A stretch of DNA of 53,867 bases from Methylococcaceae bacterium (GTDB lineage: Bacteria; Pseudomonadota; Gammaproteobacteria; Methylococcales; Methylococcaceae), in contig SCQD01000193.1 in assembly GCA_004299145.1 (NCBI GenBank), forward strand, positions 1 to 53,867. The letters run 5' to 3'. The notes beneath the pieces are model-generated. The model was not told the origin of the DNA, ran no database searches, and saw nothing but the letters and a program-made list of their open reading frames with translations. The position numbers and the translations under genes were made by a program. Within the stretch, counting starts at the first letter, position 1. The number at the start of each line of letters is the position of its first letter. Below are positions 19,255 through 51,967 of the stretch, piece after piece.

Positions 19255-19282
19255 GAGCTTGTACCTGTGGTTGGGCGCACCC

Positions 19283-19639: not shown

Positions 19640-19659
19640 AATACGCCGATCGGCGTATT
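19640..19659. promoter_or_regulatory. Perfect 20-bp palindrome, possible operator
   Basis: AATACGCCGATCGGCGTATT reads identically on both strands with no loop, more like a dimeric regulator's binding site than a terminator. It lies in the 281-base gap between the end of the NarL-type regulator gene and the start of the small gene at 19525, about 115 bases upstream of the latter. The rest of the gap shows no gene. Confidence 0.45.
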
Positions 19660-19806
19660 TTGACTACCTGTTTCTAGGTATAAGACGGATAAAGACTGAA
19701 AGCCCTGCCAAAATCGACGGGATGACTACCGGGATACTGGTAGAGCTATAAAAACAGGCCATGATAAATCAAGGCAAAGCCTTGCCCTGGAACCACAATC
19801 CCCGGC

Positions 19807-20442: not shown

Positions 20443-20444
20443 GC

Positions 20445-21146: not shown

Positions 21147-21236
21147 GGCTGCTCCTGACTCGGTAGTGCTCACCAACGCGGGTGATGTGAGCAGATCATT
21201 GAAGAGACTGACGGGCTTTACCGCCATGGCGTGGAG

Positions 21237-21671: not shown

Positions 21672-21747
21672 ATATTCACCTTGATGGCCGATGGAGCCTG
21701 TGCGGCAATGTATATCAAACATTACCGCACCATCATGGTGCTTTGCA

Positions 21748-36578: not shown

Positions 36579-37385
36579 TTATCGTTTTCTTGCCGTGACC
36601 AAGATATAACCCAAATTTTTGCTCATGTATTCCAGCGCGTAAATCCAGTCTTCCACCGTTTTTTCGGTTATGCTGTTCTTCAATGATTGTTTGTGCATCG
36701 CCAGCGCTTTTTTGAACTTTGGCACCAGCGGCGCCATCACATGGCTCGTGATATCCCACAACTCAACCAACTCAAAACCAGCGTCCTCCAAAAGGCTTGG
36801 ATAATCTTCCTTTGATACAAAATCAGAATGTATGGCGCTCTCTGCAAACCGCTTGAATTCTTGTGCCATGGGCGACAGCAGCGTCATATCCGTCAACAGC
36901 AAAGTCGCACCGGGTTTCAGAATTCGGCTGGCTTCGGCAAGCGCTGCGCGGTGGCCCATGTGAAAAATCGACTCAAAAAACCAACCCCCATCATAAGTCT
37001 GGTCGGCGCAGGGGAGATGCAGAGCATCGGCATGCATGAATTTCACCCAACCCTCAAGCCCCTCAGCCTTGGCCTTTTGGGTTGCGCTTTGTTGCTGGAG
37101 TTTGCTGATGGTCACCCCGTCCACATAACATTTCCTGGTCTTGCTAAGTTTGATTGCCGACACCCCCAGGCCACAACCCAAATCACAAAAGCGCTGGTTG
37201 GGCTGTATCCGCACCCTGTCGATCATCAATTGCGCCAGCTTGTCCGAACCGCCGGCAAAATCGGCATCGGCATTGCTCTCGTCCCAATACCCCCAATGCA
37301 CGTATCCCCCGAACATCTCAGGGATCAATTGAACTTCGGGGGAATCGTACATTGCGGCTATGGCTTTTAAATTCAAATCATGCAT
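36579..37385 (-). CDS. Class I SAM-dependent methyltransferase (RebM/UbiE-like)
   Basis: A cytoplasmic methyltransferase of 268 residues. VHWGYWDESNADAD near the start, the SAM-binding motif I FCDLGCGLGVSAIKLS, VDGVTISKLQQQSA, the post-motif HADALHLPCADQTYDGGWFF (20 residues) and EASRILKPGATLLLTDMTLL match small-molecule methyltransferases of the RebM/rifamycin O-methyltransferase type. It starts 73 bases from the divergent P450 gene and is at the edge of the AT-rich cluster. I infer tailoring of the cluster product. Sterol-type or ubiquinone-type methyltransferases are alternatives; substrate cannot be read from sequence. Confidence 0.82.
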   Translation of the reverse strand: MHDLNLKAIAAMYDSPEVQLIPEMFGGYVHWGYWDESNADADFAGGSDKLAQLMIDRVRIQPNQRFCDLGCGLGVSAIKLSKTRKCYVDGVTISKLQQQSATQKAKAEGLEGWVKFMHADALHLPCADQTYDGGWFFESIFHMGHRAALAEASRILKPGATLLLTDMTLLSPMAQEFKRFAESAIHSDFVSKEDYPSLLEDAGFELVELWDITSHVMAPLVPKFKKALAMHKQSLKNSITEKTVEDWIYALEYMSKNLGYILVTARKR

Positions 37386-37458
37386 TATTGGTCACCTGTT
37401 TTATTTTTGAAGACAATTGGTTATATGATTAATTAGTTACAAACTAGAAAATAATAAT
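37386..37458. promoter_or_regulatory. AT-rich divergent promoter region of the cluster
   Basis: The 73 bases between the two divergent starts are mostly A and T, with TATGAT, ATTAATTAG and AATAATAATATG. They must hold both promoters. I do not see one clear -35/-10 pair. The P450 start has no strong ribosome site. Confidence 0.45.
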
Positions 37459-38655
37459 ATGAACAAAACCCTCTTCACGCCGGAACAATTTTGGACACCG
37501 GAATTTCAGGTAAACCCACATCCAACATACCATCACTTCCGCGACTCATCACCATTAGAATATTTATTTTTACCCGATGGCGCCGTCTCCGGCATTAAAG
37601 GGGATATGCGAGAATGGGCATTTATGAAATATGATGATGTTTACAATGCATTCCGAGACCACGAAACGTTTGTGTCGAGCCGCAATCCTCTCTATAACAT
37701 ACTTTTCCCAAGACTTCCCTTAAGCCACGACGACCCACCGCGCCATACACATTTTCGACGCATGCTGAATAAATTTTTTACGCTTAAAAACATTGAATCG
37801 CTGACCCCGACCATTAAAAATATTGCCAATACTTTACTGGATAAAATTACCAGCCGGGAAATCGATATCATGCAGTCCTTCGCCGCAGCCTTTCCAATGA
37901 TTGTTACGGCTCACCTATTGGGGATACCGGCTGAAAATTTTGCAGCATTCCGACACTGGGCAGGGGTATTCATTATCATAAATTCACTGTCGCCTGAAGA
38001 GCAACATAAAAATAATCAAGAAATAATGGCGTTCTTCAATCAGATCATGGAGGCACGTCGTAAACGTGGAGCGGATGACATGATTACAGCTTTTGTAAAA
38101 GCAGAGGTTGATGGGAAGCCGTTGGAAGATTGGGAAATTTGGGGGTTATGCGCCCTTCTTTTTGTTGCCGGCAGTGAAACCACCACGAACCTTATCGGAA
38201 ATACACTGAACATTCTTGCGGAACGCCCAGAATTATGGCGACAGCTACGCGAAAATCGCGGCTTGGTCAATGCAGTCATTGAAGAGACCTTGCGTTATGA
38301 AAGCCCAGTCCAGCGGATTCAACGCCAAACAAGCCGAGAAGTCGTCATTTCCGGCGTAAAGCTTCCCGCGAAGGCAAATATTTCGCTCTTCATTGGAGCT
38401 GCAAACCGTGATCCGCGCGTATTTCCCGACCCGGATGAATTCCGGCTTGATCGTAAATCGCGCAATTATTTAAGCTTTGGCGCAGGCATTCATGCTTGTA
38501 TCGGCGGATTACTCGCGCGCACCGAGACCAGCATCATGCTCAATGCCTTGCTTGATCGATTTTCCAACCTCCAGCGCGGCTCTGAACCGACAATTCGTCA
38601 AACAACAAGCCTTTTATCGTGCGGCTTTCAACAATTGCCGTTGCTCTTTAGGTGA
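37459..38655 (+). CDS. Cytochrome P450
   Basis: A soluble bacterial-type P450 of 398 residues. The I-helix oxygen-activation motif is LLFVAGSETTTNLIG, the K-helix ExxR is VIEETLRYESPVQ, and the haem loop with the cysteine ligand is FGAGIHACIGGLLAR. The substrate-region HDDPPRHTHFRRML segment is standard. It needs a ferredoxin and reductase, not encoded here. It is the first plus-strand gene of the cluster, AT-richer than the genes to its left, and divergent from the methyltransferase. I infer oxidation of a peptide or terpenoid-like intermediate. Actinobacterial-type CYP families are its closest look-alikes; exact family not assigned. Confidence 0.93.
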   Translation: MNKTLFTPEQFWTPEFQVNPHPTYHHFRDSSPLEYLFLPDGAVSGIKGDMREWAFMKYDDVYNAFRDHETFVSSRNPLYNILFPRLPLSHDDPPRHTHFRRMLNKFFTLKNIESLTPTIKNIANTLLDKITSREIDIMQSFAAAFPMIVTAHLLGIPAENFAAFRHWAGVFIIINSLSPEEQHKNNQEIMAFFNQIMEARRKRGADDMITAFVKAEVDGKPLEDWEIWGLCALLFVAGSETTTNLIGNTLNILAERPELWRQLRENRGLVNAVIEETLRYESPVQRIQRQTSREVVISGVKLPAKANISLFIGAANRDPRVFPDPDEFRLDRKSRNYLSFGAGIHACIGGLLARTETSIMLNALLDRFSNLQRGSEPTIRQTTSLLSCGFQQLPLLFR

Positions 38656-38960
38656 TCTTACCCCCCGCTACTCTGCGCACATCCTTTCTGAACCTGTCAA
38701 AGTATGATCATAAGGCAAGCGGGGCGCGGGTGCCCTACTGCTCAAACGGAAACCAATCAATGCTATCATCAAGTCTCAGCCTTGCTTTGCATACAGCTCC
38801 CATGCCTGGAATAAGTCAGCAGTTTGGCTAATGCACGGGTGTGAAGCGATGAGCAGCCAGCGAAGATCGACGCACATGGTCGGAACTGACGCCAAGGCGG
38901 AAAAACGGGTAAAGTTGATGGGCAACTTTCCAAAAATCAAAATAAAAGCGTAACGAAACT
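38656..38960. other. Intergenic region, no gene seen
   Basis: These 305 bases between the P450 and the first radical SAM gene hold no supported gene. I looked for a third precursor-like sequence (SLRD, GFEAGRASD) on both strands and found none. No clear terminator is visible. Confidence 0.6.
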
Positions 38961-40943
38961 ATGGATATATGCTTGGTTGCTGTGCCCGATATGCCATTAT
39001 CAAGGCCATCCATTGCCTTGAGTATTTTAAAGTCCAGCCTGATAAATGCCGGATTTGAAACTGGCGTGCTATACGCCAACTTGGAATTTGCGGAACAGAT
39101 AGGCATAGAAAACTACTGGTTTATCAGCACTTACGCAGACTTTCTTGACCAGGTTTGCGAGTGGTTATTTTCGCAAAAAGCTTTTCCAGATTTTCACAGC
39201 GATGATAATACTTACTTCACGCTCGTTGAACCCATGCTGCGTGAGCTGGTCCATGACGATAACCTTCTAAATTTTTATCTCAACGGCCAATCGATACAGT
39301 CATATTTCACCAATTTGCGAAGCAACGCAGCGGCCTTTATCGACAAAATAGCTGCTGACATAGTCGCCGCAGCCCCCCGCATCGTCGGCTGTAGCTCTAC
39401 TTTCAGACAACATTGCGCCAGCCTGGCGCTGTTAAGACGAATACACGAACTAAACCCCGACATTATTACCATGATGGGCGGCGCCAATTGCGAAGGAGTC
39501 ATGGGGCAAACCACCCACAAAAACTTTACATTCGTGGATTATGTGGTATCGGGAGAGGCGGAATTACTGCTGCCTGAGCTTTGCCGAAATATACTGAAAC
39601 AAGGGCGCAATATCCCGGAGTATTTACTGCCATCTGGCGTACTAGCCCCCTTGAGCCGCAGCTCTGCGCCGGTTCGCAACATAGGGCGCGCCGTAGTACA
39701 GGATTTAAGTCAATCTCCGATTCCTGATTTCACGGACTTTTTTGCGCAACTGGATAAATATGGTTTTAAAGATTGTATCCATACAGCATTAATGATCGAA
39801 ACTTCCCGTGGCTGCTGGTGGGGAGACAAACACCAATGCACATTTTGTGGACTCAATGGCGGTGACGCCAATTTTCGCAGCAAAACAGCGCAGCGCGTGC
39901 AGCAGGAACTTGCCGCATTGTCAGAAAAGTACAACATCAGGAATTACCTGACAGCTGATAATATTTTGGAACACCGCTACTTTAAAGACCTCATTCCCGC
40001 TCTAGGCCAAACTGAACCCAAGTATGCCTTTCTCTTTGAAGTCAAATCCAACCTTAGTCGGCAACAAGTGCGCCAGCTAAAAGAAGCCGGTATTCACAGC
40101 ATTCAAGCCGGCATTGAAAGCCTGCATACTGAACTACTGAAATTACTCGATAAAGGCGTAACTGCAAGACAAAACATCGAATTGCTCAAATGGGCACTGG
40201 AATACCAGATTGATATTTTCTGGTTCATACTATCGGGAATCCCGGAAGCACAAGAAAAATGGTACGCGGAAATCGTCGAACTTCTCCCATTACTTACGCA
40301 CTTTCAACCGCCAATAAATATCAGCAAGCTTTATTACACGAGATTCAGCCCATACCACAACAATCAAAACCATTATGGCTTAAAGCTTGCCCCTGCACCA
40401 AGCTACCAGTACATATATCCTATTCCCCCAGACGATTTGGCCGACATAGCCTATTTTTTTGTCGACCTCAACAAGACTGACTATAACTTGCTACATAGTA
40501 AAACAACACACAATTTAAAATCAATTTACGAAACTTGGCTTGCCGCATGGACAGCCGATAATCGCCCCAAATTATCAATGACAATTACCGACGAGGCAAT
40601 TAGCATCACCGATACGCGGCCATGCGCTATACAGCAAGAAATCACCTTAATAGGATTAGCAAGGGATATCTATCTGATTTGCGATACGGCAACATTGTTG
40701 CCTAGAATCATCGACGAATTAAGCAAGGGAAGCCATGCTCATATTCCACCGTTGCAGATTGCGCTCGAACTGGATACATTAGTCAAACTAAAAATCATGG
40801 CAATGATCGAAGGACGCTACTTGGGGCTTGCGGTGCGAGAACACAATGACTTAACGTATACAGCATATCCAGCCGGAAACATCGATAAAGCAAAAATACA
40901 TCTGAAGTTTTTATTGAACAACCTTACGCACAAGACAACCTAA
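38961..40943 (+). CDS. B12-binding radical SAM RiPP-maturation enzyme, copy 1
   Basis: A 660-residue protein. The N-terminal Rossmann-like B12-binding part (about 1-230) begins MDICLVAVPDMPLSRPSIAL, with RIVGCSSTFRQHCASLALL, MMGGANCEGVMGQ and FVDYVVSGEAELLLPEL. The radical SAM core starts in ETSRGCWWGDKHQCTFCGLN: the cluster cysteines C285, C293 and C296 have C-x7-C-x2-C spacing. GIHSIQAGIESLHTELL follows in the barrel. The C-terminal 180 residues include DTRPCAIQQ. This is the pattern of the RiPP-maturation radical SAM family TIGR03975, whose members are thought to be B12-dependent C-methyltransferases. Two paralogues lie downstream. It has no adjacent precursor gene and a weak ribosome site. 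Confidence 0.9.
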   Translation: MDICLVAVPDMPLSRPSIALSILKSSLINAGFETGVLYANLEFAEQIGIENYWFISTYADFLDQVCEWLFSQKAFPDFHSDDNTYFTLVEPMLRELVHDDNLLNFYLNGQSIQSYFTNLRSNAAAFIDKIAADIVAAAPRIVGCSSTFRQHCASLALLRRIHELNPDIITMMGGANCEGVMGQTTHKNFTFVDYVVSGEAELLLPELCRNILKQGRNIPEYLLPSGVLAPLSRSSAPVRNIGRAVVQDLSQSPIPDFTDFFAQLDKYGFKDCIHTALMIETSRGCWWGDKHQCTFCGLNGGDANFRSKTAQRVQQELAALSEKYNIRNYLTADNILEHRYFKDLIPALGQTEPKYAFLFEVKSNLSRQQVRQLKEAGIHSIQAGIESLHTELLKLLDKGVTARQNIELLKWALEYQIDIFWFILSGIPEAQEKWYAEIVELLPLLTHFQPPINISKLYYTRFSPYHNNQNHYGLKLAPAPSYQYIYPIPPDDLADIAYFFVDLNKTDYNLLHSKTTHNLKSIYETWLAAWTADNRPKLSMTITDEAISITDTRPCAIQQEITLIGLARDIYLICDTATLLPRIIDELSKGSHAHIPPLQIALELDTLVKLKIMAMIEGRYLGLAVREHNDLTYTAYPAGNIDKAKIHLKFLLNNLTHKTT

Positions 40944-41159
40944 AATGGCAAGGCTGATGAGCAAAATGCCGTTAACAATCAAGGAAATACCTTGGACGGC
41001 CTGCAGGCCAAACACGGAAAACAGACATACATTGCCACCATATAAGACAAGCACATGATCATGCAGGAGTCCTCCGTGCCTTCATAAGGCTATTGCGCCC
41101 AGCCACCGCAGCCATTAATCCGTGGACTTTCTTCGCTGCATAACCTAACTATCGAAGCC

Positions 41160-43223
41160 ATGCCTCTTAAAACCCAAAAAAAAGAATTGATACATGCCTT
41201 ATGGCTGTACTGCCTACTGTCCAGCGCTTCATCCTATGCATACGATGAAGCCGCCCTGGAAGATGAACTCAAATACTTGAGAGCCGAAGGTTATATGCGC
41301 ACGGAAGTGTTTTCCGCCAGCAAAAAAACGCAGAAGCTTGAGAATGTGGCTGCTGCAATTTTTGTTGTTTCGCAGGACGACATCAAACGCAGTGGTGCCA
41401 CTCACATTGCCGACGCACTACGCATGGTTCCCGGTCTTGATGTAGGCAAGACCAACTCTGATCAATGGGCAGTCAGCGCTAGAGGATTTAGTGGTATTTA
41501 TGCAACCAAGTTATTAGTTTTGGTCGATGGGCGCAGTATTTACACGGATTCGAACGCTTCCGTCAGATGGGAGGATTATGACCTGCCGGTGGACAATATC
41601 GATAGAATCGAAGTGATACGTGGGCCGGGCGCTGCCTTGTGGGGAGCCAACGCCGTAAATGGCGTAATTAACATTATAACCAAACACTCCAAAGACACGC
41701 AGGGCGGTCAACTTACTTTAGGTGGCGGCAGCTATGACAAAAAAATCGGCAGCTTTCGTTACGGGCTAAAACTTACCGATAACCTGTATGGCCGAATTTA
41801 CGCCAAAGGCAACGAAAGAGGCGATTTGCCTTTACTGAGCAATCCAGATTTAAAGGTGGGCAACTGGGGTAATGAGCGCGCTGGCGTGCGATTGGATTAT
41901 GACAAGGGAAATGACCACGTCATGGTGCAAGCGGAAGGATTTACTGTGGATTATAATCGCCTTATTTCTGTCCCTTCATTATCGCCAGCCGCCACTCTTA
42001 TAAAGCCATATAATTATGGCGACACCGGTGCACATGCCTTATTTAACTGGAAAAGAAACTTTTCCAAAACCTCTGATATAGAAACAAAAGCTTATTATGA
42101 CACTGTAGAATATAACTATGGAGTTTTAATTCAGCGCCAACGCACAGCAAATATAGAACTAAAAAATCACTTTGCCTGGAGTTTACACGACTTTCAATGG
42201 GGACTAGGTTACCGGCACGTGCATTTTGATAACAACTCACCTGAACCATTTGCCTCAAGATACCCTGGCGCCATTCGTGAAACTCAATTATTTAGCGCTT
42301 TCGTCCAAGATGAGTTAAATTTCTTCGACAAGCAAGTACAAGTAACCCTTGGCTCCAAGCTGGAACATTTTACTTACACAGGACTTCAAGTCCAACCCAA
42401 TATTCGGGCATTGTGGCATATAAATGAGAAAAATACGTTGTGGGGCGCAGTTTCGCGTGCAGTGCGCAATCCAGACTATGCTGAAGATGATATTATTGTA
42501 CACAGCACAGTTTTGCCTACTGAACAAACCGGAGCCCCACTTCCTGTAGTTATTGGCTTCCTTGGTGACAGCGACCTAAAACCCGAAGGCTTGATTGCCT
42601 ATGAATTAGGCTATCGATGGCAAGCCCACAAACGGTTTAATATTGACTCGGCGCTGTTCTATCATGTATACGATAATCTATTGTCTTTTCGCCTGAACGA
42701 CACCCCATACCTGGATACTTTTAACAATACCCCATTTCTTTTTAGCCCATTGAAAATGAGTAACGCGGCCAAAGCTGAAGGCTATGGCTTTGAAATCGCT
42801 TCAAATTGGCAGCCCTTTAACGACCTATCCCTGCATTTGGCCTACACCTTTCAGAAGATGGATTCTCGTAGCGCATCTTCTGCTCTTAGCAGCATTTTCC
42901 TTCCCGCCATCGAAAGAGATAACCCCCAACAACAAGTTTCGTTGCGCTCAAAATGGAATGTTACATCTAATTTAAATTTTGATACTTGGCTGCGATATGT
43001 AGACACCATCCATACTTACCAGCCGCTTCAAGTATTAGGGATACCAGAGTACGTAACTTTAGATTTGCGCCTTGCTTGGCAACCCATTAAAAATTTAGAA
43101 CTGGCGGCTGTAGGACAAAACTTACTCGACCATCAACATCCAGAATTTACGTCGGGTGCATTGGCCGGAATAGAAGCTCAAACACAACGTAGCTTCTATT
43201 TGCAGGCCAACTGGAAATTTTAA
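41160..43223 (+). CDS. TonB-dependent outer-membrane receptor
   Basis: An outer-membrane protein of 687 residues. A signal sequence (ALWLYCLLSSASSYA) is followed by the plug domain (about 50-165: VVSQDDIKRSGATHIADALR, LLVLVDGRSIYTD, IEVIRGPGAALWGANAVNGV, INIITK) and a 22-strand-type barrel ending in aromatic QANWKF, as needed for outer-membrane insertion. It is in the middle of the biosynthetic cluster, between a radical SAM gene and a precursor gene, and shares the AT-rich composition. I infer uptake of the cluster product, for example as a metal- or nutrient-carrying molecule, or self-recognition. It resembles vitamin/siderophore receptors; the ligand is not readable. Confidence 0.93.
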   Translation: MPLKTQKKELIHALWLYCLLSSASSYAYDEAALEDELKYLRAEGYMRTEVFSASKKTQKLENVAAAIFVVSQDDIKRSGATHIADALRMVPGLDVGKTNSDQWAVSARGFSGIYATKLLVLVDGRSIYTDSNASVRWEDYDLPVDNIDRIEVIRGPGAALWGANAVNGVINIITKHSKDTQGGQLTLGGGSYDKKIGSFRYGLKLTDNLYGRIYAKGNERGDLPLLSNPDLKVGNWGNERAGVRLDYDKGNDHVMVQAEGFTVDYNRLISVPSLSPAATLIKPYNYGDTGAHALFNWKRNFSKTSDIETKAYYDTVEYNYGVLIQRQRTANIELKNHFAWSLHDFQWGLGYRHVHFDNNSPEPFASRYPGAIRETQLFSAFVQDELNFFDKQVQVTLGSKLEHFTYTGLQVQPNIRALWHINEKNTLWGAVSRAVRNPDYAEDDIIVHSTVLPTEQTGAPLPVVIGFLGDSDLKPEGLIAYELGYRWQAHKRFNIDSALFYHVYDNLLSFRLNDTPYLDTFNNTPFLFSPLKMSNAAKAEGYGFEIASNWQPFNDLSLHLAYTFQKMDSRSASSALSSIFLPAIERDNPQQQVSLRSKWNVTSNLNFDTWLRYVDTIHTYQPLQVLGIPEYVTLDLRLAWQPIKNLELAAVGQNLLDHQHPEFTSGALAGIEAQTQRSFYLQANWKF

Positions 43224-43499
43224 CCACACTGGACTAACAGCGCAAGAGTGAAATCCCGCACAAAAACCTTAACTCATCGATACTGTCGCCATAAAAACCA
43301 TACGAGAGACACAGCATTTTGCATCAATTACTCATGCCAGGTAACGCTTCCTCCAACCTTATCTCAAATAGCCGCAGTTAAATTATTCTCCTCTAAACGC
43401 ACTATTCACCACTTTATCAGTGTGTTAGTATTCCATTTCAGGGTTCTTAGCATTTGCTATAAACCCTGATCCATTCTTACAACTATAGGAAAACAACTA

Positions 43500-43718
43500 A
43501 TGAGCACGACTAGCATTGATGATTTGATCCAGAAAGTATTGAGTGATGCCTCACTACGTGATCGCCTACTCGCCGATCCTAAAGGCGTGCTGGAGGAAGC
43601 TGGATGCGAAGCCACTCCAGACTTGGTAGACACAATTTCCAAAATCGATCCAGAGGATTTGGTTGCCTTGGTGCGTGGATTTGAAGCCGGCAGGGCCAGC
43701 GACAAAATTGCGGCCTAA
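43500..43718 (+). CDS. RiPP precursor peptide A (Nif11/NHLP-like)
   Basis: A peptide of 72 residues with the ordered helical leader typical of the Nif11/NHLP (Os1348-like) class: DDLIQKVLSDASLRDRLLAD, PKGVLEEAG, then CEATPDLVDTISKIDPEDLV and the end GFEAGRASDKIAA. It has one cysteine and no Gly-Gly site. It aligns without gaps to peptide B at 46465, with 42 of 72 identical positions by my hand alignment, and the last 13 residues are nearly identical. AGGAAAA lies upstream as a ribosome site. It follows the receptor gene and is followed by a hairpin and a decayed copy of the same gene. The radical SAM paralogues are its likely modifying enzymes. Confidence 0.8.
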   Translation: MSTTSIDDLIQKVLSDASLRDRLLADPKGVLEEAGCEATPDLVDTISKIDPEDLVALVRGFEAGRASDKIAA

Positions 43719-43742
43719 TTTGTCGATAAGCATTGGCTGGAT

Positions 43743-43791
43743 CGAACCGCAGCAATCATAAGATCACGCATCCCAACTTTACTGTGGTTCG
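43743..43791 (+). promoter_or_regulatory. Hairpin after precursor A
   Basis: CGAACCGCAG (43743-43752) can pair with CTGTGGTTCG (43782-43791), ten pairs with one G-U. Equivalent hairpins follow the decayed precursor (44038-44055) and precursor B (46707-46747). It has no T-run and could stabilise the precursor mRNA or limit read-through. Confidence 0.55.
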
Positions 43792-43813
43792 TTCCTTAAA
43801 CAAGTAAACGACG

Positions 43814-44010
43814 ATAAATACAAACGGCACCGAAGCACTCATCAGAAAACTGCTGAGTGATATCTCTTTGCGAAATCGCCTACCCCCCCCTAAGCAGCAC
43901 TGAAAGAAGTAGATTGCGAGGCTACTCTGGATGCCAATCTCACCCCAGATGATTGCTCGCCTTGACACAAGGATTTGAAGCCCAGGACCAGCGATCGAAT
44001 TTCAACCTAA
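43814..44010 (+). pseudogene. Decayed third precursor peptide gene
   Basis: This segment aligns with the precursor B gene. It matches at NTNGTEALIRKLLSD-SLR, at a CEAT-like block and at the C-terminal GGATTTGAAGCC...CCAG...GATCGA coding region, and ends in a stop at 44008-44010 matching the B stop. The initiator is ATA instead of ATG. A run of C at 43882-43889 carries an indel, and TGA stops the frame. It lies 95 bases after precursor A and is followed by a relic of the cyclase-like gene. It cannot make the full peptide. Confidence 0.85.
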
Positions 44011-44037
44011 TTTTGAAGCTGGCTAATGGTTAAGACG

Positions 44038-44055
44038 AACCGCAAAAACGCGGTT
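44038..44055 (+). promoter_or_regulatory. Hairpin after the decayed precursor
   Basis: AACCGC (44038-44043) pairs with GCGGTT (44050-44055) around AAAAAC. It occupies the same position as the hairpins after precursors A and B. Confidence 0.5.
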
Positions 44056-44093
44056 ATGGTTTGCCCCCCCTGAACCTTATTTAAAGTAGCTTT

Positions 44094-44147
44094 CGACCAA
44101 CCACACCATAACGAGCAAATTGGCACAGTATGCTCTGAAGACTGCGC
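44094..44147 (+). pseudogene. Relic of the 5' end of the cyclase-like gene
   Basis: This 54-base segment aligns with 46781-46842, the start of the intact cyclase-like gene: CAACCA...GAGCAAATTGGCACAG...TGCT..GAAGACTG.GC in both. No continuation of the gene is visible after about 44150, and the next gene is a radical SAM paralogue at 44294. I infer deletion of a cyclase gene from a duplicated precursor-cyclase-radical SAM unit. The rest of the 44148-44293 gap holds no gene. Confidence 0.7.
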
Positions 44148-44293
44148 TTGCTCTTAGATGAACCTCTGCATAACAAGGCTTTACAAAGCCTTAATCCAGT
44201 CGCTCAGCAGCAACAGCCCCACGAATAACTTACCTGCGCGTGCTCTGCCCCTCCCCTACCAAAGCGACATAGCCGTAAAATAAGACTTAGACT

Positions 44294-46282
44294 ATGGATA
44301 TATGTTTAGTAGCAGTCCCTTTTATGCCATTACAAAGACCATCGATTGGCTTGAGCATTTTAAAGGCTAGCTTAGTAAATGCCGGATTCGATGCCGAGGT
44401 GATATATACCAATATTAAATTTGCTGAGCGCATTGGTATTGAAAACTACTGGCTAATCTCTACTTACTCAAATATTGACTATCTTGGCGAATGGATCTTT
44501 TCGCAAACTGCTTTTCGTGATTTTTACGGTGACGAAGCTGGATATTTTGATTATGCGGAAAACATACTACGCGAAACCATCAACAATGACGAACTGATGG
44601 CCGTTTACCTAAACGGCCAATCTATGCGTGAGTATTTCACAAATTTGAGAAGCATCACAACCACATTTATTGATGCAATGGCCGAGAATATTCTCGCACA
44701 CCACCCGCGTATCGTAGGATGCAGTTCCACACTCCAGGAGCATTGCGCCAGTTTGGCACTGTTAAGGCGAATTCACGAACTAAACCCAGATATTATTACC
44801 ATGATAGGCGGCGCGAATTGCGAAGCTGTCATGGGACAAATCACCCATAAAAATTTCCTCTTTGTTGACTATGTAGTATCTGGCGAAGCCGAAATGCTGT
44901 TGCCGGAGCTTTGCCGAAATATATTGCAACTGGGACGTGAAATCCCAGACTCAGCACTGCCGCTGGGTGTACTGGGCCCCATGAGCCGATTCTCTATGCC
45001 GGTACGCAACATAGGACGCGCCGTAGTACAGGATTTAAACCAGTCTGCTATTCCAGATTACTCGGATTATTTTGCGCAACTAACTGATTCTTCTTTAAAA
45101 AACTATGTCGACCCAGCCCTGATTATTGAAACATCCCGGGGCTGCTGGTGGGGAGACAAACTACGGTGTTCATTTTGTGGGCTCAATAGCGAGGAATCAC
45201 AGTTTCGCAGCAAAACAGCGCCACGTGTACAACTAGAACTTATCTCTCAAACTGAAAGATACCAAATCAGCAATTATCTAACGGCTGATAACATATTGAA
45301 TCAACGCTTTTTTAAAGACCTCATCCCCAGCCTGGGCAACACTGAGGCAAAATATTCATTTTTCTTTGAGATAAAAGCCAACCTTACACGCAAACAGGTT
45401 AGCCTGCTAAAAGATGCCGGCATACACTGCCTTCAGCCCGGCATAGAAAGCCTGCATAGTGAGTTGTTAAACCTGCTTTATAAAGGCGTCAGCGCCAGAC
45501 AAAACATTGAACTGCTCAAGTGGACACTTGAATATCGAATTGACACTTGCTGGTACATACTAACGGAAATCCCAGGTGCGCGCGAAGAATGGTACGCGGA
45601 GATGGCGAAAATCCTCCCGCTGATCGCTCACCTTCAGCCACCCATGGGTTTTAGTAAGATATGTTTTTCTCGCTTCAGCCCCTATCATAATGAGCCAAGC
45701 CGGTTTGGTTTAGATCTTGTGCCTATGCCGGGTTATCAGCGTATTTTTCCCATGAGCACTGACGATTTAGCCGATTTTGCTTATTATTTTATCGATCTTA
45801 ACGAAATAGGCAGCAAACATCGCCATAGCCTAGCCATGCAAAACCTGCGAGCCAATTATGCAGTGTGGAAAACGGCATGGACAGCCAATGCAGATAAAGC
45901 ACGCACTAAATTATCGATGATTATCGACGAAACGGCAATTACCATCACAGATACGCGGCCATGCGCCATACAGCAACAGATTACCTTAACCGGGCTGCCG
46001 AAGGCAATTTATAGCATTTGTGATACTGCGGCATCATTGCCAAAAATCCTTGACGAACTAAGCAAAACATATGGCATGGATATTGCGACGACGCAACTGG
46101 AACATGAACTTGAGGCGCTACTCAAATTAAAAACCATGATGCACATCGACGGGCGTTATTTAAGCCTTGCTGTACGCGAACATGAGAACTTGTCATATGC
46201 CCCATACCCTGGAGGAACCATCGATGGGGCAAAGATACATTGGAAGTTTTTTTTGAACCGGCTTAAAGCTAAGGAAACTTAG
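44294..46282 (+). CDS. B12-binding radical SAM RiPP-maturation enzyme, copy 2
   Basis: A 662-residue paralogue of the genes at 38961 and 48786. The B12-binding half has MDICLVAVPFMPLQRPSIGL, RIVGCSSTLQEHCASLALLR and MIGGANCEAVMGQ. The radical SAM cysteines are C284, C292 and C295 in SRGCWWGDKLRCSFCGLN. The TIM-barrel segment GIHCLQPGIESLHSELLNLL and the C-terminal DTRPCAIQQQITLTGL are shared with the other copies. Compared with copies 1 and 3 it has LRCSF instead of HQCTF and STYSNIDYLGEWIF near the start. It lies between the decayed precursor unit and precursor B and is followed by a likely terminator. Three diverged copies suggest modification at different sites or of different peptides. 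Confidence 0.9.
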   Translation: MDICLVAVPFMPLQRPSIGLSILKASLVNAGFDAEVIYTNIKFAERIGIENYWLISTYSNIDYLGEWIFSQTAFRDFYGDEAGYFDYAENILRETINNDELMAVYLNGQSMREYFTNLRSITTTFIDAMAENILAHHPRIVGCSSTLQEHCASLALLRRIHELNPDIITMIGGANCEAVMGQITHKNFLFVDYVVSGEAEMLLPELCRNILQLGREIPDSALPLGVLGPMSRFSMPVRNIGRAVVQDLNQSAIPDYSDYFAQLTDSSLKNYVDPALIIETSRGCWWGDKLRCSFCGLNSEESQFRSKTAPRVQLELISQTERYQISNYLTADNILNQRFFKDLIPSLGNTEAKYSFFFEIKANLTRKQVSLLKDAGIHCLQPGIESLHSELLNLLYKGVSARQNIELLKWTLEYRIDTCWYILTEIPGAREEWYAEMAKILPLIAHLQPPMGFSKICFSRFSPYHNEPSRFGLDLVPMPGYQRIFPMSTDDLADFAYYFIDLNEIGSKHRHSLAMQNLRANYAVWKTAWTANADKARTKLSMIIDETAITITDTRPCAIQQQITLTGLPKAIYSICDTAASLPKILDELSKTYGMDIATTQLEHELEALLKLKTMMHIDGRYLSLAVREHENLSYAPYPGGTIDGAKIHWKFFLNRLKAKET

Positions 46283-46406
46283 TCGATCAACCGGTCATTC
46301 TGCGCATTCCCAGCCTCCAGTATGGAAAAATGCCCCCAACATTTCTGTTTACAACACCCTTCTCCCTGCTGTTGCATTGTTCATCCGCTATGATATCCTC
46401 CCCAGA

Positions 46407-46433
46407 CGGGGCGATAACCATGCCCCGTTTTAC
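46407..46433 (+). terminator. Probable terminator between radical SAM copy 2 and precursor B
   Basis: ACGGGGC (46407-46413) pairs with GCCCCGT (46423-46429) around a 9-base loop, and TTTTA follows. It would end the upstream message or attenuate read-through into the precursor B gene at 46465. Confidence 0.6.
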
Positions 46434-46464
46434 CTAAATAACTAATCTACAGAAGGAAACAATC

Positions 46465-46683
46465 ATGAATACAAACGGCATCGAAGCACTCATCAGTAAA
46501 CTGTTGGGTGACGCATCTTTGCGGGATGGCCTTTTTGCAAACCCCAAAGCAGCACTGGAAGGGGTCGGCTATGAAGCCACCCCTGATTTGATTGACGCTA
46601 TTGTTAACCTCAACCGGGATGATTTGCTTACCTTGGCACAAGGATTTGAAGCCGGCAGGGCCAGTGATCGAGTTGCAGCCTGA
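46465..46683 (+). CDS. RiPP precursor peptide B (Nif11/NHLP-like)
   Basis: A peptide of 72 residues paralogous to precursor A, with IEALISKLLGDASLRDGLFA, NPKAALEGVGYEATPDLIDA, then NRDDLLTLAQ and the end GFEAGRASDRVAA. It has no cysteine, so the product cannot depend on cysteine chemistry. AAGGA lies about 8 bases before the ATG. The gene is preceded by a terminator-like hairpin and followed by a hairpin, the cyclase-like gene and radical SAM copy 3, in one direction. The conserved C-terminus is the best candidate for the core, but the cleavage point is unknown. Assignment as a precursor rests on the leader pattern and the context. Confidence 0.82.
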   Translation: MNTNGIEALISKLLGDASLRDGLFANPKAALEGVGYEATPDLIDAIVNLNRDDLLTLAQGFEAGRASDRVAA

Positions 46684-46706
46684 TTTTGAAGCCGGCTGAT
46701 GGCCAG

Positions 46707-46747
46707 GACGAACCGAGCAAACACTTTCTAGCTTGACTGGGTTCGTC
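46707..46747 (+). promoter_or_regulatory. Hairpin after precursor B
   Basis: GACGAACC (46707-46714) is the exact inverse of GGTTCGTC (46740-46747), across a 25-base loop region. It separates the precursor from the cyclase-like gene and may uncouple their expression levels. Confidence 0.6.
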
Positions 46748-46798
46748 CCATCCCTCCTGAGTTCTTGATTTAATCGCACCTGTCAACCAACCACCATC

Positions 46799-48769
46799 AT
46801 GACTACCGAACAAAATGGTACAGGGTGCTTGGAAGACTGTGCCGAATTGTTCGGTCAATCCCGGCAAAACGAAGCGCTGCAAACCATGCTCAAGTTGCTG
46901 GGTAATGACAGTCCCGCAGAAAAACTTGCCATTGCTGTGAGCGGGGTTCTTGAGACAAGCCGTTGCACCGAAAGCCCCCCCTCTTCCAACTCACCATTCC
47001 TGAGTTCTGCTCTTCAGCGATTTCAGCTTTTCCTGGCGGCGGCAATACATAGCACTGAACAGCCGTTCGGCATGACGCCGGTTTTTTTTTCCGACAGCCA
47101 GCCGTTTTGCCCAGCGCCACTGGAATGGTTGGCACAGGCACGAGCCAGTACGATGACTTCCAGCGCCAAATTACCGGCTAACGTCACAGCCACACTGGAC
47201 CAGATTTTTGCAACGACGTATCCCCTGCTTGTTTTACCCCCGATTTTTCTTTTTCCTGCGGATTCTCCCCTACTCAGCTATGCCATGGGCTTATGGTTTC
47301 CACTGTGGGGGGAAACCATGAAAGCCGGGGTTGCTTTGGGCTTCCTGGTTCGCCTGACCCAGGAAGCGCTAACGCTTTTTTGCAGCGCCAGCGTCGGCGG
47401 TAGCCGCGCAACGCCCCACCTCCTCAGCCATATCGCACTGGAAAGCGGCTGCGATGAAGGCCGGTTACGCACAGCTTGGGCCTGCGCTTTTCACCCTTTA
47501 TATGGTCTTAGCCAGCTTCAACATCTATTGGGTCAACGCACGGTGCTGGCGCACATCCGAACTAAGATCGCAGATTATTTATCGGCGTGCGCGACACTAC
47601 CGGAACCTATTCGGCTACACGTGCAGCAACTGGAAAACGATTGCTCAAAAGCCTTGGACCGTGCGCTTGCAGCGGCCCACTTTGCGGGTCTTTTTCCGAT
47701 GCCCGTTTTGGGCCACCAAAGAACAACGCCCCAGTTCTCTCAGTTAGTCCCTATCACTAACCTGAACGAAGCCATACGCCGAGAACGGGACCGCACTATC
47801 CGTCTGGCGCGCGACGGCTTGCTGGAAGACCTGACTTTTCACGAAGGCTTGGACATTCAGCGCTGGGGCGCCTGGTGTGAAGCGCCCCGCTACGGGCGGA
47901 TTTTTCCGGTGGGCTATGGCCTGCTGGCGCTGGCCGCCGAGGGCAGCGAAAACCCCACCGTTACCACCGCCATCGACGCCCTGCTCGACGCCCGCAGGGT
48001 GGACGGCTATCGCTATTTCGAGGATTGGACCGGCATTCCTCCTGGTCCCGACGATCTCGGCATCGTGCTGCAACTACTCCCTTATAGTCTGCGCCGCGAC
48101 GAACTGCGTGCCGCACTGCGCTTTCCGATGGAACAACTTTTTTATCATACCGGCGCCGATGGCTGCATCCCCACCTGGATGACGCAAAACCTGCATGAAC
48201 CACCCGCTGAAGGCTCCGTAACCTGGGACCCCAGAGCCTGCCTGGGCACCATGCTGGGCGCCATACTGGGCTTGGTGCGCGCTTCATGGCCGCTGCCGGA
48301 AGGATATTTGGACCGGGCCATTTCGTACATTACCGATACCTATGAAAACGCACCGGACCATGGCGCGCCCTATTACCCGGCATCGTATCTGCGCTTGTTG
48401 ATGGGAGAACTGCGCATGCATCTGGACAACAATAGCTGCGCCCCAGCTTGCATGGTTGGATTTGACCAAGTCCTTGAAAGCATAAAAAAAGAAATTCTAA
48501 CCACTTGGCGTGCGGATGGCGGCTGGGGCAGCCCCCTGACGACGGCTTTTCACCTGGGTACGCTGGCGGCCTTGCATACCCAGGGCATAGATGCCAGCCC
48601 GGCGTATCTGTACCTGTCCGCCAAACAAGAGCCCGACGGCCTGTGGCCGCGAGAGCCCATCTATGTCGCCACGGGCAAAGACGGCGCTCCTTTTAACTAC
48701 GGCAGCCGCTCGGTCACCACCGCGTTCTGCTTGCGTGCACTAACCCTGGCTAAAACTGTTTGGCCCTAA
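46799..48769 (+). CDS. Squalene-cyclase-like alpha/alpha-toroid protein
   Basis: A protein of 656 residues without signal or membrane segments. The C-terminal half (about 340-650) has repeats of the prenyltransferase/squalene-cyclase type, such as WRADGGWGSPLTTAFHLGTL (20 residues), PDGLWPREPIYVA and YGSRSVTTAFCLRAL. A central EDWTGIPPGPDDLGIVLQLL lies where squalene-hopene cyclases have DXDDTA, with the first Asp replaced. The N-terminal half is poorly conserved by eye, and it is locally GC-richer than its neighbours. The gene lies between precursor B and radical SAM copy 3, and its relic follows the decayed precursor, so it belongs to the unit. It could be a terpene-type cyclase, a peptide cyclase or a toroid binding protein. 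I saw no LanC zinc motif. Confidence 0.65.
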   Translation: MTTEQNGTGCLEDCAELFGQSRQNEALQTMLKLLGNDSPAEKLAIAVSGVLETSRCTESPPSSNSPFLSSALQRFQLFLAAAIHSTEQPFGMTPVFFSDSQPFCPAPLEWLAQARASTMTSSAKLPANVTATLDQIFATTYPLLVLPPIFLFPADSPLLSYAMGLWFPLWGETMKAGVALGFLVRLTQEALTLFCSASVGGSRATPHLLSHIALESGCDEGRLRTAWACAFHPLYGLSQLQHLLGQRTVLAHIRTKIADYLSACATLPEPIRLHVQQLENDCSKALDRALAAAHFAGLFPMPVLGHQRTTPQFSQLVPITNLNEAIRRERDRTIRLARDGLLEDLTFHEGLDIQRWGAWCEAPRYGRIFPVGYGLLALAAEGSENPTVTTAIDALLDARRVDGYRYFEDWTGIPPGPDDLGIVLQLLPYSLRRDELRAALRFPMEQLFYHTGADGCIPTWMTQNLHEPPAEGSVTWDPRACLGTMLGAILGLVRASWPLPEGYLDRAISYITDTYENAPDHGAPYYPASYLRLLMGELRMHLDNNSCAPACMVGFDQVLESIKKEILTTWRADGGWGSPLTTAFHLGTLAALHTQGIDASPAYLYLSAKQEPDGLWPREPIYVATGKDGAPFNYGSRSVTTAFCLRALTLAKTVWP

Positions 48770-48785
48770 CAGAGAGGATTTGATG

Positions 48786-50786
48786 ATGGATGTATGCTTG
48801 GTAGCCGTTCCTTACATGCCTTTACAAAGGCCATCGATTGCCTTGAGTATTTTAAAAGCTAGCTTGGCAAACGTAGGAATAGATACCGGCGTACTGTATA
48901 CCAATATTGAGTTTGCTGAACGCATCGGCATAGAAAACTACTGGTTTATTTCCACGTTTTCGCACCTCGACTTGCTAGGCGAATGGCTATTTTCTCGAAA
49001 AGCGTTTCCCGATTTTCACAGCAACGAGGATGTTTACTTTGAAACCGCAGAGAATATACTCCGGGAAGTGGTCGACAACGACAGACTTTTGAATTTTTAT
49101 CTCAAAGGCCAGTCGATACACTCATACTTCACCGGCCTTAGGAGTATTGCCGCCACTTTTATCGATGACATGGCGGCCAACATCGTTGCACACGCCCCGC
49201 GCATCGTGGGCTGTAGTTCCACCTTTCAGGAACACTGCCCCGGCTTGGCACTGTTAAAAAAGGTTCATGACCTAAACCCCGATATTATCACCATGATGGG
49301 CGGCGCGAATTGTGAAGGCACGATGGGGCAAGTCACCCATAAAAATTTTCTATTTGTTGATTACGTGGTTTCAGGCGAAGCTGAAATTCTGTTGCCGGAA
49401 CTTTGCCAAAAAATATTGGTATCAGGGCACAATATCCCTGACTCGTTACTACCATTGGGCGTGCTTGGTCCGATGAGCAGGCAATCGTCAAAACCCATGC
49501 GCACCATTGGACGTGCGGTTGTGCAAGATTTTAACAAATCACCGATTCCTGATTTCAGTGACTATTTCGAACAAATAGGAAAATCCTCCATCCAGGAATA
49601 TCTTAGCCAAGCATTGGCTATTGAAACCTCCCGAGGCTGTTGGTGGGGCGACAAACACCAATGTACTTTTTGTGGACTGAATGGTTCAGACGCCATGTTT
49701 CGTTACAAATCGGCGCAACGGGTACAGCACGAGCTTGAAATACAAACAGGCAAATATGGCATAACCAACTATCTGTCCGCTGACAACATACTGGGACTCA
49801 GCTACTTTAAAGATTTAATCCCCTCCCTGGCGAAAAACACCACGAAATACTCCCTATTTTTTGAAATCAAGTCAAACTTAAGCCGCAAACAAATGCAGAT
49901 GCTAAAAGAGGCCGGCGTGGACTGCGCTCAACCAGGCATCGAAAACCTGCATACCGAATTACTAAAGCTAATTAATAAAGGCGTCACTGCAAAACAAAAT
50001 ATTGAAATACTAAAGTGGGGACTGGAATATAAAATTGATATTTTCTGGTTCCTGTTACTGGATATTCCCGGTGGACAAGAGGCATGGTACAACGAGGTAG
50101 CGGAGATTATTCCACTGATCGCCCATCTTCAGCCCCCCATGAGAGTAAACTGGGTAGAGTATTGCCGTTTTAGTCCTTACCACAACGAACAAAACCGATT
50201 TGGATTAAATCTAGCTCCATATCCTTGCTATACCTTCATTTACCCAATGAGCAAAGAGGATATATTCGATTTTGCATACCTTTTTATCGATCTTAACGAT
50301 ACAGAAAAAAAACAACGCCACAGCGAAGTCATGAAAAAACTAAAATCCAATGCTATGGCTTGGCAGTGCAATTGGGATTACTCCGCCAATCACCCCAAAA
50401 CAGAATTAACCATGGCCGCTGATGATGATGCATTGCAAATCATCGACACACGGCCATGCGCCGTACAAAAACACATCGTTTTGACCGGTTTACCGAAAAG
50501 GGTTTACGAAATTTGCGACACTTCCGCATTACCCCAAAAAATCCATGAAACGCTGAACAACGAAGGATATATGGATATCACCCCCGCTCAGTTGGATATC
50601 GAACTCGGCACACTCATCGACATGAAAATCATGCTGAAAGTCGACGACCACTATCTCAGCCTCGCCGTCCGCAAACACCCTGAACTTTCCTACGCCAAAT
50701 TTCCCTCCGGCTGCATCGAATACAGCAAAATACATAGCAAGTTTTTTGTAAAACCCGATCAGGAACCCGCAAATAAGGCCATTTAA
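48786..50786 (+). CDS. B12-binding radical SAM RiPP-maturation enzyme, copy 3
   Basis: A 666-residue paralogue of copies 1 and 2. The ATG at 48786 aligns with the MDxCLVAVP starts of the other copies and has GAGG 8 bases upstream; TTG at 48780 and ATG at 48783 are in frame but less likely. The B12-binding half has RIVGCSSTFQEHCPGLALLK and MMGGANCEGTMGQ. The radical SAM cysteines are C285, C293 and C296 in SRGCWWGDKHQCTFCGLN. The C-terminal part has DTRPCAVQKHIVLTGL. It starts 16 bases after the cyclase-like gene, so the two are co-transcribed with precursor B. It is the last gene of the cluster. Confidence 0.9.
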   Translation: MDVCLVAVPYMPLQRPSIALSILKASLANVGIDTGVLYTNIEFAERIGIENYWFISTFSHLDLLGEWLFSRKAFPDFHSNEDVYFETAENILREVVDNDRLLNFYLKGQSIHSYFTGLRSIAATFIDDMAANIVAHAPRIVGCSSTFQEHCPGLALLKKVHDLNPDIITMMGGANCEGTMGQVTHKNFLFVDYVVSGEAEILLPELCQKILVSGHNIPDSLLPLGVLGPMSRQSSKPMRTIGRAVVQDFNKSPIPDFSDYFEQIGKSSIQEYLSQALAIETSRGCWWGDKHQCTFCGLNGSDAMFRYKSAQRVQHELEIQTGKYGITNYLSADNILGLSYFKDLIPSLAKNTTKYSLFFEIKSNLSRKQMQMLKEAGVDCAQPGIENLHTELLKLINKGVTAKQNIEILKWGLEYKIDIFWFLLLDIPGGQEAWYNEVAEIIPLIAHLQPPMRVNWVEYCRFSPYHNEQNRFGLNLAPYPCYTFIYPMSKEDIFDFAYLFIDLNDTEKKQRHSEVMKKLKSNAMAWQCNWDYSANHPKTELTMAADDDALQIIDTRPCAVQKHIVLTGLPKRVYEICDTSALPQKIHETLNNEGYMDITPAQLDIELGTLIDMKIMLKVDDHYLSLAVRKHPELSYAKFPSGCIEYSKIHSKFFVKPDQEPANKAI

Positions 50787-50864: not shown

Positions 50865-50968
50865 TCGAGCGGTTGCTTTCCGGTTAAATTACCGGGCATT
50901 TCCGGCCCCTTGCCGGCCCTGCGTGTTCACTGGAGCAGTATCCCGATGAAACATCACATCGACCCCAA
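50865..50968 (+). repeat. 104-bp direct repeat, left copy
   Basis: Bases 50865-50968 are identical to 53764-53867 at the window edge. The repeat covers the leader and first codons of the Rpn gene and probably extends beyond the window. It marks a tandem array of nuclease-ATPase units about 2.9 kb long. Confidence 0.97.
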
Positions 50969-51806
50969 AATCGACTGCGTTTTCAAAGCCTTGCTCGGTT
51001 CGGAAGCCAACCGTAATTTACTGGTCCATTTCCTCAACGCCGTGCTGAAGCAGGACTTGAGCGCGCCGATCACCGAGGTCGACATCCTCAACCCCTACAA
51101 CGACAAAGAGTTCCTCGCCGACAAGCTGAGCGTGGTGGACGTTAAAGCCAAGGACGGCCAAGGGCAGCTGTTTCAAGTCGAAGTCCAACTGCTGATGTAC
51201 CGCAACCTGCCGGCACGGATTATCTACACCTGGGCGGACATTTACAGCCAGCAACTGCAAAGCGGTGAGGATTACCACAAGCTCCAGCCGACTTATGCGA
51301 TTTGGCTGGTGGCGGAGGACATCGTGAAGGACGACGAGCAGTACGCGCGGGAATATAAACTGAGAGACGAAAACGGACGGACGTTAATCGAGCATGGCGG
51401 CATATGGTTGTTGGAGCTGAGCAAATTCAGGGCGGACATGGTCGAAACCGAACGACAGCGATGGCTTAAGTTTTTTAAAGACGGCGACAAGCTCGACGAC
51501 AACCGGTTGCCGGAGTGGATGAATACCGAAGAAATGAGGCAAGCGATGGGTACGTTAAAACTGTTTTCAGAAAAAGAGCGCCATTATCACGAATATCAAG
51601 CCCGGCAGAATTACCTTCGGGAACAGCGCACGATTCAGTGGGAGTTGGAACAAGAGCGCCAGGAAAAACTGGCGGCGTGGCGGGACAGGCAAAAAATATT
51701 GCAGGAAAAAGAAGCCGCATTGCAACGGGAAGAAGCCGCTTTGCAACGGGAAGAAGCCGCTTTGCGGGAAATCGAACGGTTAAAAAGCCTGCTGAACCAG
51801 CCATAG
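50946..51806 (+). CDS. Rpn-family PD-(D/E)XK nuclease/putative transposase
   Basis: A 286-residue protein. It begins MKHHIDPKIDCVFKALLGSE, the Rpn-family opening, with LLVHFLNAVLKQDL. The catalytic core has the aspartate in LSVVDVKAKD and the ExQ of QVEVQLLM, a variant of the PD-(D/E)XK motif. TYAIWLVAEDIV and GGIWLLELSKF follow. The C-terminus is a charged coiled coil made of EAALQRE heptads. Rpn proteins are recombination-promoting nucleases, related to PDDEXK transposase-like families. The ATG at 50946 is chosen from the conserved MKHHIDPKID start. It is the first of a tandem set with an AAA-ATPase gene. Confidence 0.9.
   Translation: MKHHIDPKIDCVFKALLGSEANRNLLVHFLNAVLKQDLSAPITEVDILNPYNDKEFLADKLSVVDVKAKDGQGQLFQVEVQLLMYRNLPARIIYTWADIYSQQLQSGEDYHKLQPTYAIWLVAEDIVKDDEQYAREYKLRDENGRTLIEHGGIWLLELSKFRADMVETERQRWLKFFKDGDKLDDNRLPEWMNTEEMRQAMGTLKLFSEKERHYHEYQARQNYLREQRTIQWELEQERQEKLAAWRDRQKILQEKEAALQREEAALQREEAALREIERLKSLLNQP
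51711..51770 (+). repeat. 21-bp tandem repeat encoding coiled-coil heptads
   Basis: The unit GAAGCCGCTTTGCAACGGGA plus one base repeats nearly three times (51711-51731, 51732-51752, then a partial). Each unit encodes EAALQRE, one heptad of a coiled coil. Length change would shorten or lengthen the coil without shifting the frame. Confidence 0.95.
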
Positions 51807-51811
51807 CCCCG

Positions 51812-51940
51812 ATGAAACATCACATCGACCCCAAGATCGACTGCGTTTTCAAAGCCTTGCAAAGCAGGGGAGCAGCCGTAGCGCTCACAGCGCGCTACGG
51901 ATTGACCGGATCAGGAAAGTTATTTTCAACCAAATTCTGA
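51812..51940 (+). pseudogene. Chimeric relic: Rpn start joined to ATPase end
   Basis: The first 48 bases repeat the Rpn start (MKHHIDPKIDCVFKAL), then the sequence jumps to ALTARYGLTG, which is near the C-terminus of the ATPase protein at 51968-53728 (53630-53655 region). The result is a 42-residue frame ending at 51940. I infer that a whole Rpn-ATPase unit was removed by deletion, leaving its two ends joined. It is unlikely to be functional. Confidence 0.85.
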
Positions 51941-51967
51941 ACGCCCCCCCTTATTCGAGTCACGCCG

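Follow-up and report, generated by a model that had tools for sequence, protein, structure and literature searches.

An AT-rich island in the genome of a Methylococcaceae bacterium raises the question of what a set of three paralogous radical S-adenosylmethionine (SAM) enzymes could be making there. The island occupies positions 36579-50786 of the window analyzed here, which is the whole of contig SCQD01000193.1 (53,867 nucleotides; one complete contig of a 4.6-Mb genome). Its plus strand carries, in this order, a cytochrome P450, rSAM1, a TonB-dependent receptor, precursor 1, a broken precursor, rSAM2, precursor 2, the orphan protein P0006 and rSAM3, and the methyltransferase P0009 lies on the minus strand, divergent from this operon. 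We consider it probable that the locus is a cluster for a ribosomally synthesized and post-translationally modified peptide (RiPP), in which peptides with leaders of the NHLP/Os1348 type serve as precursors and B12-dependent radical SAM C-methyltransferases act on their core. The features of the island are the following:

36579-37385, minus strand: P0009, class I SAM-dependent methyltransferase (Methyltransf_11, 56.3 bits)
37459-38655, plus strand: P0008, bacterial cytochrome P450 (PF00067, 142.3 bits)
38961-40943, plus strand: rSAM1, B12-dependent radical SAM C-methyltransferase of family TIGR03975 (681.9 bits)
41160-43223, plus strand: TonB-dependent outer-membrane receptor (NF053590, TOL_0244 family, 497.7 bits, under the cut-off of 645)
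43500-43718, plus strand: precursor peptide 1, 72 amino acids, leader of the Os1348/NHLP clan (NF038399, 47.6 bits), proposed core FEAGRASDKIAA
43814-44008, plus strand: broken third precursor copy, a pseudogene (blastn 69.6% to precursor 2, E 7.5e-23)
44294-46282, plus strand: rSAM2, TIGR03975 paralogue (664.9 bits)
46465-46683, plus strand: precursor peptide 2, 72 amino acids (NF038399, 44.4 bits), proposed core FEAGRASDRVAA
46799-48769, plus strand: P0006, orphan protein whose C-terminal half is distantly similar to squalene/oxidosqualene cyclases (hhalign)
48786-50786, plus strand: rSAM3, TIGR03975 paralogue (656.4 bits); the listed open reading frame (ORF) starts at a TTG at 48780

The identity of the three enzymes is well defined. 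All of them match TIGR03975 over profile positions 1-606 of 606 with 656-682 bits, for a cut-off of 281.85, while the next-best NCBIfam family reaches 52.4 bits or less; their assignment to a non-RiPP family, in which they score no better, was therefore rejected. The B12-binding (PF02310) and Radical_SAM (PF04055) domains are above cut-off in each protein, and all three contain the C-x7-C-x2-C motif within SRGCWWGDK that an initial annotation made from the sequence had reported, its cysteines being C285, C293 and C296. Their mutual identity is 61-64%, and among the matches listed no other relative exceeds 44%. In a tree of 112 sequences they form one clade with support 100, to which the protein of G011, the sole other genome of the genus compared, is not sister. 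The trio is best read as a private expansion by local triplication of one gene. Pairwise rates of nonsynonymous and synonymous substitution (dN/dS) are 0.24/1.63, 0.29/2.43 and 0.28/2.21, i.e. ratios of about 0.12-0.15 that are rough because dS is near saturation; even so, the copies are old and were retained. A model of rSAM1 obtained with AlphaFold2 (AF2), using 11 further sequence rows, has a mean predicted local distance difference test score (pLDDT) of 88.1, and B12-radical SAM enzymes predominate among its best fold matches: OxsB (Z 20.6; 393 residues, 3.2 Å), AprD4 (18.7), MgmA (18.6), TsrM (18.3), TokK (18.1) and CysS (17.7). The family is rare in the order, being found above cut-off in 8 of 301 genomes, this one included.

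The two 72-residue peptides, described as homologous and NHLP-like in the initial annotation, are indeed 58% identical and both exceed the cut-off of 40 bits of NF038399, the Os1348 family of the NHLP clan. Compared as a pair with the NHLP precursors of the comparison loci described below, they align with hhalign at 96.3% (E 1.8e-9, score 50), while the best of 20 shuffles scored 14.9. In an alignment of 11 divergent sequences (A3), IDPEDLVALVRG lines up with LSxxELxxVAGG, the end of the leader in the other sequences, which is the reason for placing the cores at FEAGRASDKIAA and FEAGRASDRVAA; only columns L54 and G60 are invariant, and G60 aligns with the second Gly of the leader GG. The core would thus comprise about 12 residues, FEAGRASD(K/R)(I/V)AA, after a leader of about 60. 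Residues G60 to D68 are identical in both peptides (9/9 columns), positions 69 (K/R) and 70 (I/V) differ, and A71 and A72 are again identical. For the whole pair dN is 0.25 and dS 2.56 (ratio 0.10, with dS near saturation), and dN is 0.14 in residues 59-72 and 0.28 in residues 1-58, on few sites. Given the near-identity of the cores and the lower substitution in this region, both precursors seem to give one product rather than a library. The third copy, overlooked by the initial annotation, is dead, as its start codon is replaced by ATA and its translation is interrupted by stops.

PoyB and PoyC, which belong to polytheonamide biosynthesis, are of the TIGR03975 kind. PoyC also shares the Cx7Cx2C spacing of the enzymes in the window, and the residues of polytheonamide that it methylates are Ile3 and Val5, 10 and 21, according to the available portion of PMC11285071, which also describes class B radical SAM methyltransferases as forming a radical on a substrate carbon that receives its methyl group from methylcobalamin. 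By analogy, the enzymes of the island would bind cobalamin and a 4Fe-4S cluster, the 5'-deoxyadenosyl radical would take hydrogen from unactivated core carbons, and methylcobalamin would give a methyl group to the core carbon, as for PoyB and PoyC. The likeliest target would be the Ile/Val at position 70, where beta-methylation would lead to tert-leucine or 3-methylisoleucine. It is taken as the first prediction because it is the only beta-branched residue of the core and of the residue type that PoyC methylates; even so, naming I70/V70 as the specific methylated residue is at best a tentative proposal. Other core residues would be candidate sites for the other two enzymes. The P450 would probably oxidize the same peptide and the methyltransferase probably O- or N-methylate it, P0006 would probably bind it or convert it further, and the leader would be cut off by a protease encoded outside the island.

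For comparison, 80 loci around TIGR03975-type genes were collected, 73 from a scan of genome contigs (best 80 of 579 confirmed relatives) and seven from relatives; since L039 duplicates L086 and a contig end is common to L040 and L106, 78 are distinct. Most of their radical SAM proteins were taken as TIGR03975-type without individual TIGR03975 scores, and because loci are cut by contig ends, absences are lower bounds. PoyD, assigned by BLAST clustering with three members checked against TIGR04517, is present in 45 of the 80 loci (43 of the 78 distinct ones, since L039, L086, L040 and L106 all carry it). NHLP/Nif11-like precursors, counted with a hidden Markov model (HMM) built for this analysis, also occur in 45, with both elements in 35 and neither in 25. 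Together with the curated model matched far above its cut-off and the fold of rSAM1, these precursor counts bear out the initial filing of the island as a RiPP system with TIGR03975-type enzymes. Local expansion is common in the family, as at least three Cx7Cx2C proteins were present in 9 of the 70 loci where such proteins were counted. A short core beside such an enzyme exists in L070, with only 10 residues after GG. An apparently independent occurrence of this plan is L088 (Candidatus Anammoxibacter, positions 1-14901), with three relatives of the radical SAM proteins, a TonB-dependent receptor, a methyltransferase and two 57-residue peptides that are homologous to each other and have short tails, ending in VAGANG(S/L)FYP; the one of these peptides that was compared with NCBIfam matched no family at E 1e-6. 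Relatives of the receptor, the P450 and the methyltransferase of the island were detected in three, two and four of the 80 loci, respectively (phmmer, E<=1e-3). Seven Colwelliaceae loci (L115, L126, L132, L134, L135, L139 and L141) form a clade of single TIGR03975-like genes, with no recognized precursor or PoyD within the stretches examined, and the substrate of these enzymes is perhaps not a RiPP.

Several observations weigh against the RiPP assignment or against parts of it. The 25 loci with neither PoyD nor an NHLP-like precursor mean that a TIGR03975-type enzyme alone is no proof of a RiPP. Two of the top fold matches, OxsB, whose reaction is other than methyl transfer, and the radical SAM dehydratase AprD4, are no methyltransferases, and the fold of rSAM1 alone therefore leaves the reaction unfixed. 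Leader binding by the C-terminal domain of the enzyme, which in the rSAM1 model consists of three strands, three helices and two more strands, is unproven, since its likeness to PqqD, considered here as a sign of a RiPP recognition element (RRE), is at shuffle level (hhalign against 15 PqqD sequences 1.5%, score 16.2, with up to 17.9 in shuffles); the 50 fold-comparison matches listed for the model include no PqqD chain, and with the C-terminal fragments Pfam gave no more than two matches, both weak and unrelated. Neither peptide contains GG, the aligned boundary being RG or QG, so the double-glycine site of the poy type is missing. Among the island proteins scanned, Pfam and NCBIfam identified neither a C39 peptidase or other protease nor an ABC exporter. 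Finally, these precursors were found beside TIGR03975 in no other genome searched. The precursor pair matches 3 of 311 genomes of the order, one of them its own and the other two with only 23.6 and 20.8 bits; nine Os1348-like neighborhoods, from 9 of the 21 other genomes of the class with matches, contain no relative of the three radical SAM proteins; and the best plasmid match to precursor 1 is one record annotated as a universal stress protein (E 0.4). Co-occurrence of peptide and enzyme in other genomes, which the initial annotation had proposed as a check, thus leans against it.

In an alternative reading, the 72-residue peptides would be stand-alone, leader-like accessory domains, with the radical SAM enzymes modifying another peptide or protein. 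The tail past the leader is only about 12 residues long and is the part most alike in both copies, and PoyD epimerases carry a similar N-terminal domain. This resemblance between the PoyD-type (TIGR04517) N-terminus and NHLP/Os1348 leaders is an observation in its own right: the protein of L129 (184-1707) scores 33.8 bits in NF038399, under the cut-off of 40, and PoyD N-termini align with NHLP precursors at 89% (hhalign). The window pair aligns with the PoyD N-terminus at 85.9% (score 35, against at most 16.8 in 20 shuffles), a poorer fit than that to NHLP precursors, the short core of L070 provides a precedent, and no other precursor-like ORF was seen among the small intergenic ORFs listed for the island, all of which leads us to regard accessory domains as unlikely. 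That the cluster is a decaying remnant which no longer has a product could be argued from the loss of one of three precursor copies, from the missing transporter and protease functions among the scanned proteins and from the failure to find a homologous cluster; set against three intact enzymes and two intact precursors with low dN/dS, we find this very improbable. A PoyD-type locus was also considered and rejected, as PoyD (TIGR04517) is absent from the genome at E<=0.001, while the same search was positive in two of five relatives (G033 and G052).

Returning to the RiPP cluster as the preferred reading, the P450, the methyltransferase and the TonB-dependent receptor, like all other genes named in the initial annotation, are located where it had placed them. 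The closest solved chains to P0009 are MitM (7.9e-38) and then 3bus, deposited as 'Methyltransferase' (2.2e-32), which we take to be RebM. P0008 matches 357 distinct PDB sequences at E<=1e-20, the best being 9lw0, 'Cytochrome P450' (1.9e-73). Judging from their position, the P450, the receptor and P0006 would act on the same peptide.

P0006 is the most unusual member of the island. Its description as squalene-cyclase-like stands for the C-terminal half, in profile alignments, and finds no backing in family models: the protein has no match in Pfam (E<=10) or NCBIfam (E<=0.01), and none in PDB at whole length. Residues 330-656 align with a profile of 19 squalene-hopene/oxidosqualene cyclase-type sequences (hhalign 76.5%, E 2.2e-5, score 45.9), and alignments of this half to cyclases reach 72-77% over 242-272 columns. 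Since hhalign E-values refer to one template, shuffles are the fair measure here, and the best of 100 reached 24.7. Whole P0006 scored 47.7 and 14 controls 12-21, and the N-terminal half fails to align with the profile (0.06%). A plain HMM of the cyclases gave 3.0 bits only (E 0.016 among nine proteins). Among PDB sequences, drimenol synthase, lanosterol synthase and squalene-hopene cyclase match the C-terminus at E 0.3-3.2, standing among antibody light chains and being therefore hints only. The stretches RADGGWGS, QEPDGLWP and YGSRSVTTAF resemble QW motifs. The AF2 model of P0006 alone (pLDDT 37) was left out of fold searches. No homologues were found in genome contigs, by a search sensitive to close relatives only, nor in viral contigs, plasmids or 301 genomes of the order, nor in the ORFs of the 80 comparison loci at E<=0.1. 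In 398 genomes of the phylum there were matches in 27 at E<=0.1, including itself (best other 0.0059), which were rejected as noise, being short and partly with stops. The protein was also considered as a lanthionine cyclase, which was rejected because there is no LanC match in Pfam.

The cyclase likeness allows for a composite island, with the RiPP module separate and P0006, the P450 and the methyltransferase making or tailoring an isoprenoid, possibly attached to the peptide. The G+C content of P0006, 57.5%, is unlike that of the rest of the island, so that this gene may have joined separately. Oxidosqualene cyclases lack DxDD and use the motif DCTA. P0006 has neither a D-x-T-A string nor the catalytic DxDD, its sole DD being at 418-419 within GPDD (416-419), although DxDD is also absent from two of the three templates inspected (L185 and L188), with DVDD in L171. 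As the gene is flanked by precursor 2 and rSAM3, shares their orientation and is 16 bp from the latter, and no prenyltransferase or isoprenoid synthase was recognized among the island proteins scanned, we give this composite arrangement rather little credence. A bolder idea, which we hold to be quite improbable, is that P0006 founded a family of terpene-cyclase-derived toroid enzymes acting on RiPP peptides, its role possibly being a cation-driven cyclization or the attachment of an isoprenoid to the C-methylated core, with L091 as an independent case. In that Anaerolineales locus a flavin amine oxidase is fused to a squalene-cyclase-like domain (9263-11419; PF13243 22.4 bits, under the cut-off of 26.1; hhalign 91%), the sole further such protein in the 80 loci. 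It stands next to three Nif11 precursors, a TIGR03975 protein (670 bits), two more B12-radical SAM proteins, HlyD and a C39 ABC transporter. The combination of TIGR03975 enzyme, cyclase-like domain and NHLP/Nif11-clan precursors is thus common to both clusters, which differ in the fusion to the oxidase, the GG of the Nif11 precursors and the C39 ABC transporter of L091. Both proteins fail to align directly (0.6%), so common origin is not shown.

As regards characterized systems, the island shares Cx7Cx2C radical SAM C-methyltransferases (PoyC) and an NHLP-clan leader with the proteusin clusters of the polytheonamide type, from which it differs in having no PoyD, no GG site and a core of about 12 residues instead of a long one, and in the addition of the P450, the TonB receptor and the toroid-like protein. 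The window peptides belong to the same leader family, NF038399, named for Os1348, as those of the pos/pfl clusters of Pseudomonas. According to the available portion of PMC12636437, PosA from Pseudomonas Os17, which is the Os1348 peptide, lacks a double glycine and has a short modified C-terminus; having the same leader type, it implies that these features of the window peptides are not new. In what is available of PMC12636437 and PMC7726476, these clusters, like the island, have no protease gene nearby; unlike it, in place of TIGR03975 enzymes they encode a HEXXH dioxygenase, an acetyltransferase and a nitroreductase, the last of which is MNIO-fused in pfl. With its three radical SAM C-methyltransferases and its methyltransferase, the island also resembles bottromycin in composition. 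Bottromycin has a short core and its biosynthesis combines B12 dependence with a P450 and YcaO enzymes; YcaO was not among the island proteins compared with Pfam and NCBIfam, a comparison that covered these proteins and not the rest of the genome. In the bottromycin cluster, as described in the accessible part of PMC11285071, three radical SAM C-methyltransferases and an O-methyltransferase accompany an N-terminal core with a follower, whereas the core in the island is C-terminal after an NHLP leader.

The low G+C content noted in the initial annotation was confirmed: the island has 47.3%, compared with 59.8% over the 14.5 kb on its left (22.0-36.5 kb) and 54.9% over the 3 kb on its right. Apart from P0006, the single genes of the island range from 44 to 51%, and PhoR, PhoB and three more genes on the left from 59 to 65%. 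The phoR-phoB region is 77% identical in G011, and the similarity stops at window position 36345; the next gene in G011 is an ORF of 858 residues, presumably clpB-like, and the island is not there. On account of the G+C contrast, this end of similarity and the presence of a transposase-family protein on the right, lateral acquisition of the island is likely, with the left junction being the one compared with G011. Directly to the right, positions 50910-53728 encode a PDDEXK_2 transposase-family protein and an AAA-ATPase/PDDEXK_9 protein. A second AT-rich stretch outside the island (15339-21722) encodes an EAL/GGDEF/PAS protein, a SpoIIE-type phosphatase, a LuxR-type response regulator, a histidine kinase and a CheR_N fragment, and one of its genes (15.3-17.5 kb) also has 51% G+C.

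The kinds of enzyme and leader present here are already known. Os1348-clan precursors paired with TIGR03975 enzymes, this triplication and the orphan toroid-like protein were found nowhere else in the genomes searched, nor were they seen in the literature searched, including the accessible portions of PMC7726476, PMC12636437, PMC11285071 and PMC9062424. P0006 and the oxidase-toroid fusion of L091 point to a possible recruitment of a terpene-cyclase-like fold into RiPP pathways, of which no report was seen in the literature searched, a collection that lacked most subscription papers. Should P0006 prove to be a toroid enzyme acting on the peptide, the product would belong to a peptide class not described before, and, if taken up by the neighboring receptor, it would serve as a signal or metal carrier for methanotrophs, the group of Methylococcales to which the host presumably belongs. 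Enzymes of the PoyC kind methylate unactivated peptide carbons and give rise to rare residues such as tert-leucine, and with three sister enzymes, two precursors and a core of about 12 residues, the island would offer a small, testable system for studying how target sites are divided among paralogues.

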